A stretch of 34,264 bases of DNA. It comes from an uncultured Oscillibacter sp. GTDB lineage: Bacteria; Bacillota; Clostridia; Oscillospirales; Oscillospiraceae. Position 1 is the first letter of the stretch, and each line of letters begins with the position of its first letter. Position numbers and translations under genes: made by a program. Under the pieces are notes generated by a model. It worked only from the letters and a program-made list of their open reading frames with translations, had not been told where the DNA came from and ran no database searches. The DNA is taken from the NCBI GenBank assembly GCA_947577075.1, contig CANPTW010000029.1, positions 1 to 34,264 of the forward strand, given 5' to 3'. Below are positions 21,491 through 23,541 of this stretch, in pieces.

Positions 21491-22675
21491 CTACGCGCTT
21501 TCGCGGCGCTCCTGCATATGAAAGTATTGGGCCAAGCCCTGGGCTTTGATATTCCGCGCGGCGTTCGTCTCCCGCTTGAGGTTCGCGCCGCAGCGGGGAC
21601 AGGTCCAGGTCCGCCGCCTTGTGGAGATTTCCTCCGGCATAACGCAGCCGCAGACGGAGCAGGTCCGGGTGGACGGGAAGCTGCGGTCAACCATAAGGAG
21701 CGGCTTTCCCTGCCGCGCCAGCTTGTAGCGCAGACACTCCCGGAACATCCCATAGCCGGAATCGTGGACATTTCCAAGGCCCATGATTCTGTTGAGCTCG
21801 TTCATCTCGTCCGCTCTCACGCACACGGCGTCCCAGGCGTTGGCTATCCGCCGGGATTCCTTGTGAATGTAGTCGCGGCGCTGATTGGCGATATGCTCAT
21901 GAATCTGATAGAACTTTTGCACGGCCTCCCGGTAATTCCGGGAGCCGGGCTGCATCCGGTTCAGGCTCCGCTGGAGGCCGGCCAGCTTCTCCTGCGCCTG
22001 CTTTTTCCATCGGGGCGGGTCCGCCGCGGCCCCGCCGCTGTCCACGTAGAAATGCTGCATGGAATATTTGAGCCCCACCGTGGTTTCCTCTGTGGGAACA
22101 ACCGGGACCGGCTCCTTTTCCGTGTGCTCATAGAGAATATAGCCGTAATATTTGCCCGTCCGTGTCTTGTCCACGGTGATGCGCTTGAGCTTCCACCACG
22201 CCTGGGGACGGCGGGAAAACTTTGCCCGGACAATCCCGGCCTTGGTCATGCGGACGCCGTCCCTTGTGGTGTAGATGGTGGGACCGGACTCAAAAACATG
22301 GTTGCAGGCGGTGAAAGAATCCCGGTCGCTTTTCTTGCGCTTGAAATTGGGATGCCCAAAATGCTCAGGATCCCTGAAGAACACCCGGAACGCTTGGGAG
22401 AGCTTGTTGTGCTCCTGGATCAAGGCCTGATTGTCGACCTCTTTCAGGAAGGGCGCTCCGGTCTTGTATTTTGCCGGGGTAGGAATGAAAAAAGCTCCGG
22501 TTTCGTTGTAGAACCGCTGCTGGTCGGAAAGCATCTGGTTCCAGATGTAGCGGCAGCAGCCGAAGGTCTTTCCGAAAAGCTCCTCCTGCTCCGGGGTGGG
22601 GTACAGCCGGACCTTGAGGGTGGTGAACTGTGCCGGATTGCCGGTATTTTTACGTCGTCCGTTCCTCGCCGCCAT
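21491..22675 (-). CDS. TnpB-family protein with all three RuvC catalytic residues lost (TldR-like)
   Basis: A 394-residue full-length TnpB homologue: N-terminal LKVRLYPTPEQEELF helix, WED/REC-like core, RuvC-like domain and a C-terminal zinc ribbon with all four cysteines (339, 342, 359, 362). At the three RuvC positions the catalytic acids are replaced: GLDxS becomes GLKYS (Lys203), the VxIED-type motif becomes VCVRAD (Arg287), and DRDxNAA becomes KRETNAA (Glu369). It should therefore bind guide RNA and DNA without cutting. TnpB homologues of this kind (TldR) are RNA-guided transcriptional repressors, some tied to flagellin genes. No tnpA partner adjoins it. ATG 22675 has AAAGGAG 12 bases upstream. 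csrA and flagellin follow on the same strand, and an invertible promoter segment precedes it. Confidence 0.85.
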   Translation of the reverse strand: MAARNGRRKNTGNPAQFTTLKVRLYPTPEQEELFGKTFGCCRYIWNQMLSDQQRFYNETGAFFIPTPAKYKTGAPFLKEVDNQALIQEHNKLSQAFRVFFRDPEHFGHPNFKRKKSDRDSFTACNHVFESGPTIYTTRDGVRMTKAGIVRAKFSRRPQAWWKLKRITVDKTRTGKYYGYILYEHTEKEPVPVVPTEETTVGLKYSMQHFYVDSGGAAADPPRWKKQAQEKLAGLQRSLNRMQPGSRNYREAVQKFYQIHEHIANQRRDYIHKESRRIANAWDAVCVRADEMNELNRIMGLGNVHDSGYGMFRECLRYKLARQGKPLLMVDRSFPSTRTCSVCGCVMPEEISTRRRTWTCPRCGANLKRETNAARNIKAQGLAQYFHMQERRESA

Positions 22676-22691
22676 GCTGCCGGCACACTCC

Positions 22692-22832
22692 TTTCGGGAA
22701 AGCGTACTTTTTTAGAACGGAAATTTTTCAAAGAAAATTTTTGAGAAAGTATTATCTTCCCAAGCAGTTGTGCCGAATAAGAAACTGTAAGCAAAAACGG
22801 CCTCTATTCTAAAAAAGTACGCTTTTTTAGAA
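22692..22832. promoter_or_regulatory. Invertible promoter segment of module B (TldR-like switch)
   Basis: Two inverted 26-bp sites, 22692-22717 and 22807-22832, share an exact 16-base inverted match (GCGTACTTTTTTAGAA and its complement). Read on opposite strands both have the central dinucleotide AC. Centres are 115 bp apart, matching 116 bp in module A. The distal site is a near-perfect dyad (TTCTAAAAAAGT against TTCTAAAAAAGC); the proximal one is poorer on the side facing the gene. The recombinase gene ends 16 bases beyond the distal site and the TnpB-like gene starts 16 bases from the proximal site. The best internal promoter points away from the TnpB-like gene (OFF). Confidence 0.82.
22727..22755 (+). 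promoter_or_regulatory. Promoter inside invertible segment B
   Basis: TTCAAA (22727-22732), 17-base spacer, TATTAT (22750-22755), reading away from the TnpB-like gene toward the 3' end of the recombinase gene. Inversion would move the -10 to about 22769-22774 on the minus strand, giving the TnpB-like gene a leader near 90 nt. The match is fair, weaker than in module A. The minus strand in the present orientation has a GATAAT but no -35. Confidence 0.5.
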
Positions 22833-22840
22833 TAGAGGCC
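22799..22840. terminator. Terminator hairpin of recombinase B, overlapping the crossover site
   Basis: A perfect 18-bp stem (GGCCTCTATTCTAAAAAA and its complement) with a 6-base loop, followed on the minus strand by GTTTTTGC. The loop and inner stem are crossover site 22807-22832. Inversion would exchange bases 22799-22806 and shorten the stem to about 10 A/T-rich pairs. Confidence 0.8.
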
Positions 22841-22848
22841 TTGTATAA

Positions 22849-23541
22849 TTAGGGGATGTTTTCAAACTGGAGCGCCTTATAGTAGAACGTGGAAACCGGC
22901 ATGGCGCAGGCGTCCGCAGCCTGGTTCAGCGTGAGCTTTTTCCCGCGCCACTCCTGATGGACCTGATAGAAGTTGTCCGGCAGGGGAGCGGGCGGACGCC
23001 CGAACTTCACGCCTCTGGCTTTTGCCGCCGCGATACCCTCCGCCTGACGCCGGCGAATGTTGGTGCGCTCGTTCTCCGCTACGAAGGACAGTACTTGGAG
23101 AACGATGTCGCTGAGGAAGGTGCCCATCAGATCCTTGCCGCGCCGGGTATCCAGCAGAGGCATGTCCAGTACTACGATGTCGGTTTTTTTCTCTTTGGTG
23201 AGGATGCGCCACTGTTCCAGGATTTCGGAGTAATTGCGGCCCAGCCGGTCGATGCTCTTGATGTAGAGCAGATCGTCCGGCTTCAATTTCTTCACCAGCC
23301 GCTTGTATTGCGGCCGTTCGAAGTCTTTGCCGGACTGCTTGTCCATGAAGATATTCTTTTTCGGGATCGACAGTTCCTTCATGGCAATGAGCTGCCGGTC
23401 CTCGTTCTGGTCGCGCGTGCTGACCCGGACATAGCCGTATGTATTTATTTGGATAGTTATCGAACCTCCTTTTGCCCTTCCCAGGCAATATCTTACTTTA
23501 TATCTTGAAATTTGTGTATAAAAGAACGCAAACACGTCCAA
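22849..23541 (-). CDS. Small serine recombinase (DNA invertase family), module B
   Basis: Homologous to recombinases A and C: TYGYVRVSTRDQNEDRQ with the nucleophilic Ser, KSIDRLGRNY, LLDTRRGKDLMGTFLSDIVLQVLSFVAENER, then a different C-terminal helix-turn-helix (WRGKKLTLNQAADACAMPVSTFYYKA). The expected job is inversion of 22705-22819. The start is odd: a strong AGGAGG lies at 23465-23470, but the codons behind it (ATA, ACT, ATC) include no ATG, GTG or TTG, and the coordinate given uses a TTG at 23541 that lies inside a terminator hairpin. The real start is probably near 23460 with a non-canonical codon (about 203 aa), or the start codon has been lost. Confidence 0.8.
   Translation of the reverse strand: MDVFAFFYTQISRYKVRYCLGRAKGGSITIQINTYGYVRVSTRDQNEDRQLIAMKELSIPKKNIFMDKQSGKDFERPQYKRLVKKLKPDDLLYIKSIDRLGRNYSEILEQWRILTKEKKTDIVVLDMPLLDTRRGKDLMGTFLSDIVLQVLSFVAENERTNIRRRQAEGIAAAKARGVKFGRPPAPLPDNFYQVHQEWRGKKLTLNQAADACAMPVSTFYYKALQFENIP

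Follow-up and report, generated by a model that had tools for sequence, protein, structure and literature searches.

Organization of the tldR Locus

The window, by which the whole 34,264-nt stretch of analyzed DNA is meant, comes from a bacterium related to Oscillibacter whose own genome is distributed over 94 contigs in an assembly that is 83% complete. The minus strand carries, in this order, a gene for a small serine recombinase (22849–23541), a 26-bp site, an 89-nt interior, a second 26-bp site, a gene for a TnpB-like protein (21491–22675), a guide-RNA region (21206–21469), csrA (20800–21162), and a flagellin gene (18867–20627). No Rfam family was found at its gathering score between positions 18500 and 26500. 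Elsewhere in the window, 36-bp tandem repeats at 15972–16434 encode a PPGEEQPPAEEV-type repeat within an open frame (15442–16605). The region 28337–34233 encodes a Viral_Rep-like protein, an FtsK-like protein, and a large serine recombinase, and looks like an integrated mobile element.

Inverted Sites and Their Recombinase

The two dyad sites named in a preliminary description of this DNA are both present, one on the TldR side (22692–22717) and one on the recombinase side (22807–22832). Their exact inverted match, described there as 16 bases long, in fact extends over 19 nt (22699–22717 and 22807–22825), and 21 of the 26 positions match in inverted orientation. The AC center that they were said to share is also found, since one site has GT as its central dinucleotide and the other has AC, and these agree when inverted. 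As a dyad the TldR-side site is weak (6/12). With up to three mismatches allowed, the 19-mer occurs in the window at these two places only (0.02 expected from shuffles); across the 94 contigs of the whole genome there is one more place, with three mismatches, which equals the result of a reversed-pattern control. The longest inverted match in 200 local dinucleotide-preserving shuffles was at most 12 nt, compared with the 19 nt observed. Among relatives, the site sequences vary from locus to locus yet agree inside each locus.

The recombinase reading frame ends at 22849, 16 nt beyond the recombinase-side site, as had been reported. Its product carries a Resolvase domain (PF00239), and its serine motif aligns with that of Sin, the best match among solved structures; the aligned serine is presumably the catalytic residue. 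The frame is listed from an upstream TTG, and ATG, GTG, and TTG are all absent from positions 23437–23475 near the ribosome site. The start is likely an AUA codon at 23458–23460, behind AAAGGAGG. Several relatives have AUC where the window has AUA, and the unusual start therefore seems to be a conserved feature, one that would perhaps keep the recombinase scarce. Across the 40 related loci with sites (see below), a recombinase gene lies upstream on the same strand in 19 and on the opposite strand in 5, and 16 have no match in the DNA examined. Because of the latter two groups, the recombinase may act in trans.

The Candidate Promoter Within the Segment

Inside the segment, the preliminary description had placed a promoter-like pair pointing away from the gene. 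Such a pair (TTCAAA-17-TATTAT, plus strand, 22727–22755) does exist, but sigma70-like pairs are at chance level here (1 found against 1.5 in shuffles) and the relatives keep a sigma28-like element instead, so the pair was rejected as a promoter. Overlapping it is a sigma28-like candidate, ATTAT-16-GCCGAATA (plus strand, 22751–22779), which points away from tldR. When scored against CTTAA-N14-17-GCCGATAA (maximum 13), the candidate reaches a weak 9/13, the lowest of the 40 loci, the other 39 of which score 10–13. Taken alone it is not above background, as a score of 9 arises 44 times in the window and 37.9 times in block shuffles. The sigma28-like element is nevertheless the feature conserved among the relatives' segments, and a sigma28/FliA-like promoter is a better reading than a sigma70 one. 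One FliA above the cut-off is encoded in the genome.

Both Orientations Among Related Loci

For comparison, 64 TldR-like loci were added to that of the window, 28 from a genome search (in which 22 of 400 family genomes matched) and 36 from genome contigs. Six loci with duplicate upstream DNA were dropped, leaving 59 distinct loci. Site pairs were sought in the 330 nt upstream of tldR, and 42 were found, two of which lacked dyads and were discarded (L028 and L036). A site pair with a sigma28-like promoter inside is thus present at 40 of the 59 distinct loci; the promoter points toward tldR in 12 and away from it in 28, including the window. The 19 loci without a counted pair comprise 5 whose upstream DNA is no longer than 137 nt, the 3 loci L025–L027, 3 with a pair farther upstream (L042, L048, and L064), and 8 without a credible pair. 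At L042, L048, and L064 the sites are 114, 126, and 127 bp apart and stand behind a recombinase-like fragment or csrA, which lies between switch and tldR. One relative, L037, has neither a recombinase match nor a passing site pair.

The two orientations can also be compared directly. Oscillibacter sp. 1-3, which like Flintibacter muris DSM 110149 is an isolate among the relatives, holds two copies of the locus (L049 and L069) whose interiors are 99% identical when one is inverted, compared with 53% in the same orientation. The identical letters run into tldR, with one extra base at one junction, and the tldR of L069 is interrupted. The interiors of L010 and L044, which come from different sources, match at 86% inverted against 60%. 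In genome G005 there are two recombinase-csrA-flagellin cassettes without a TldR match (labeled L169 and L170, and also L136 and L149), and their interiors agree at 73 of 89 positions inverted and at 49 of 89 in the same orientation. The window interior aligns with that of L053 in the same orientation (81%) and with that of L051 inverted (72%). Inversion of the segment is supported for the family, because both orientations occur among related loci and within two single genomes. For the window locus, whose single assembly contains only the promoter-away state, we infer it from these relatives; the predicted invertible segment would span the 115 bp between the site centers (22705–22819).

A Terminator-Like Hairpin Split by the Segment Boundary

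At the center of a 19-pair hairpin (22799–22840, minus strand) lies the recombinase-side site; the hairpin is directly followed by GTTTTT on the recombinase coding strand and is predicted to act in termination. One arm of this hairpin sits on the invertible segment, and inversion in silico weakens it from -29.2 to -11.9 kcal/mol. The same tendency is found among the relatives: when the promoter points away from tldR, the recombinase-side site tends to be part of a long hairpin, and when it points toward tldR, the two arms are found apart, one at each end, in direct repeat. Judged by arm alignment, this rule holds for all 12 toward-loci and for 22 of the 28 away-loci (5 away-loci contradict it and 1 is neutral), and folding gives the same proportions, 12/12 and 22/28. 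When all 40 loci are oriented with the promoter away, pairing continues past the 26-bp site, at a minimum of 6 of 8 positions, in 29 loci on the recombinase side and in 5 on the TldR side; in the flipped state only 1 of the 40 shows it on the recombinase side. A run of T is less regular, with at least four T in the next 8 nt in 9 of the 22 stems whose half-length is 18 or more; the window's stem has five. These patterns predict a terminator that is complete only in the promoter-away state, an arrangement referred to here as a split terminator.

Spacing of the Sites

The 115 bp between the site centers in the window belong to the most common of three spacing classes. The 40 TldR loci have distances of 114–117 bp (25 loci), 124–127 bp (10), and 136–138 bp (5), forming clusters at about 115, 126, and 137 bp. 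Their phase concentration near a 10.8-bp period is 0.897, compared with a maximum of 0.605 in 2000 controls in which each distance was jittered by up to 6 bp, kinship being ignored. The same control, likewise ignoring relatedness, was applied to a second set of 73 recombinase loci without a TldR match in the fetched DNA (82 minus 6 that were too short and 3 that were TldR-linked). Thirty of the 73 have a site pair, at 113–116 (13), 127 (1), 134–138 (14), 147 (1), and 228 bp (1), and block-shuffled controls of this set contained none. The 228-bp pair (L085) fell outside the spacing test; the remaining 29, all within 95–152 bp, reach a phase concentration of 0.86 against a control maximum of 0.622 (kinship ignored). 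Spacing by whole helical turns suggests direct synapsis of the two sites on a short DNA loop.

The 29 segments of the second set differ from the TldR loci in that sigma70-like promoters are commoner, pointing away in 20, toward in 3, and tied in 6. In 16 of the 20 sigma70-away segments, the hairpin is stronger in the assembled than in the flipped orientation. A sigma28-like score of at least 10 occurs in 5 of the 29 segments, including both G005 csrA-flagellin cassettes. Since sigma70-like promoters are commoner in this set and sigma28-like ones appear in the G005 flagellin cassettes, promoter type seems to follow cargo.

Further cassettes of this recombinase family were observed in the window and beyond. 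At 1406–5115 a related recombinase gene (4498–5115) is followed by a gtr operon (GtrA, GT2, GtrII). The inverted sites of this cassette (4346–4371 and 4462–4487) are 116 bp apart, with the central dinucleotide CT/AG rather than GT/AC. Its hairpin is opposite in phase to that of the tldR cassette (-7.4 as found, -19.1 flipped), and its sigma70-like promoter points away. A third recombinase copy lies at 25140–25840, with a similar half-site (AAAAAAGTCTGC) downstream and no pair that passes the test; together with the 4498–5115 copy it forms a 639-nt inverted repeat that is 90% matched. In L081–L104, recombinases of the same family stand beside genes that by reading were named as secreted or surface, DNA-modification-like, or chemoreceptor-like, and beside one Erm-like gene.

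TldR, Guide RNA, and the Flagellin Cargo

The TnpB-like protein aligns with ISDra2 TnpB over most of its length. At the D-E-D positions of RuvC it has K203, R287, and E369, R287 being assigned from a multi-protein alignment as it falls in a gap of the ISDra2 pairwise alignment. Going by the ISDra2 triad positions, we take these to be the catalytic sites. The first RuvC aspartate is absent from 50 of 53 aligned TldR-like proteins and is kept in L025–L027, which have neither csrA nor flagellin in the DNA examined. The protein is therefore predicted to be a nuclease-dead TnpB (TldR).

The guide-RNA scaffold contains a long stem that covaries over 43 cores, with 1348 of 1416 cells paired and 22 of 33 pairs changing on both sides, in a structure that was predicted on the same alignment. 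Duplicates were kept among these 43 cores, as among the 53 loci with both tldR and flagellin used below. Just before csrA is a guide-like 21-mer (21185–21205, minus strand) that resembles codons 5–11 of flagellins. It matches the genome's other flagellin there at 16 of 21 positions and the operon's own flagellin at 13 of 21; unrelated stretches of the window match at up to 15 of 21 positions, and the match to the other flagellin is no more than suggestive. Many guides in L009–L070 read CAMAAYATTATGACGATGA, most flagellin starts read ATGGCNATG, and a mismatch in the distal part recurs.

A possible target of CsrA is found in the leader of the other flagellin, where a hairpin contains CAAGGAT; for a relative, a CsrA site of this kind is described in the accessible text of a recent study (PMC13418256). 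In the leader of the operon's own flagellin, too, a hairpin has GGA in its loop, and for this reason CsrA might act on that flagellin as well.

None of the 53 loci has a sigma28-like site scoring at least 10 between tldR and the flagellin gene; the other flagellin of the genome has one scoring 13/13. This result and the TldR-less cassettes suggest that flagellin is the constant cargo and that TldR is an additional repressor gene. Most probably the unit under control is the entire tldR-guide RNA-csrA-flagellin operon, which would be an alternative-flagellin operon and not a repressor alone.

A Predicted Flagellar Phase Switch

From this, it was hypothesized, with good confidence, that the locus is a Hin-like flagellar phase switch in which the recombinase flips the 115-bp segment and thereby turns the tldR-guide RNA-csrA-flagellin operon on or off. 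Direct computation shows the sites, the hairpin, the gene order, the loss of catalytic residues, and the occurrence of the two orientations in related loci; we infer recombination at the window locus, promoter and terminator activity, and repression. The assembled state would be OFF, with the sigma28-like promoter directed away from tldR and the recombinase-side hairpin stopping read-through from the recombinase gene. A flip would aim the promoter at tldR and move one hairpin arm to the far end, so that the hairpin would be dismantled. In the ON state, the operon's own flagellin would be made while the other would be repressed by RNA-guided TldR on DNA and by CsrA on mRNA.

The earlier proposal that inversion switches an RNA-guided repressor is supported insofar as a putative recombinase-linked invertible promoter precedes a predicted TldR and relatives show both orientations, but the switched unit is likely the whole operon. 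Similarly, flagellin repression is part of the predicted switch, but phase-variable silencing describes only one side of it: with its own flagellin in the operon, inversion would swap flagellins. A more elaborate model is held with somewhat less than even confidence. It would combine a split-terminator inverton, in which one flip turns a sigma28 promoter around and also assembles or disrupts the terminator between invertase and operon, with a short in-phase loop that, owing to the whole-turn spacing of the sites, replaces the Fis enhancer, and with an RNA-guided flagellin switch of the hin-fljBA type.

It could also be that the family switches while the window locus is a locked relic, with a recombinase that is hardly translated, a decayed promoter, and a segment fixed in OFF. 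The weak promoter (9/13), the AUA-like recombinase start, and the state of L037 would all fit such decay. However, decay would erode the 19-nt match between the sites, which is still exact, and AUC at the same start position in several relatives makes the odd start look conserved; we consider this outcome improbable.

That a sigma70 promoter is inverted and controls the RNA-guided repressor alone, making flagellin silencing phase-variable, is very unlikely: TTCAAA-17-TATTAT does point away from tldR, but it is a chance-level pair, relatives keep the sigma28-like promoter, a strong sigma28 site directly precedes the operon flagellin in 0 of 53 loci, and TldR-less versions retain csrA and flagellin. 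We give hardly any credence to the idea that nothing inverts and that the repeats are a static terminator plus a recombinase operator. The full terminator-like hairpin at the recombinase-side site would suit it, but interiors occur in both orientations even within single genomes, the hairpin arm travels with the segment, and the sites differ among loci while matching within each locus. A Hin-like switch of the whole operon is accordingly the preferred reading.

Relation to Known Systems

In Salmonella hin-fljBA, a serine invertase flips a promoter before an operon of flagellin plus repressor. The locus described here has the same plan, but RNA-guided TldR and CsrA take the place of FljA as predicted repressors, its segment is about 115 bp long, and its recombinase lies outside the segment. 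Gut invertons, reportedly described in a 2019 Science paper, likewise have an invertible promoter between inverted repeats, as is predicted here.

The preliminary description knew of no published combination of an RNA-guided repressor with DNA inversion. Hin-linked inversions at TldR loci have, however, been in print since May 2026: the accessible text reports hin genes, inversions of about 120 bp, and a FliA promoter at csrA-associated TldR loci (PMC13418256, Nat Microbiol). These loci share with the window the order hin-segment-tldR-csrA-fliC and the loss of RuvC residues. They have a FliA-type promoter in the segment, where the window has a weak candidate, and their guides are directed toward fliC ORFs, as the window's guide may be (16/21, best unrelated 15/21). 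The window holds a new locus, and the accessible portion of that paper does not mention the split terminator, the helical spacing, cassettes without TldR, or the missing promoters of the operon flagellins. The same source names the Salmonella hin-fljBA system and describes TldR-FliCP of Enterobacter, which is prophage-borne, has a guide to the fliC promoter region, and is apparently expressed constitutively; it resembles the present locus in placing a nuclease-dead TnpB beside an alternative flagellin (PMC13418256). In the flg switch of Clostridioides difficile, inverted by RecV, the available text reports Rho-dependent termination in the OFF leader (PMC7446863). There, too, inversion upstream of flagellar genes acts on termination, whereas at the present locus the flip is predicted to assemble or disrupt an intrinsic hairpin. 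The accessible text of open-licence literature on invertons, serine recombinases, and phase variation contained no description of a split terminator or of helical site spacing.

As predicted from its sequence and relatives, the locus connects a domesticated TnpB acting as an RNA-guided repressor with the classical phase variation of flagellin by DNA inversion. Flagellin is recognized by the mammalian immune system and by some phages. With the split terminator and helical spacing, the published association with hin would acquire a concrete, numerical mechanism, and the helical spacing is found again in cassettes whose cargo is quite different.
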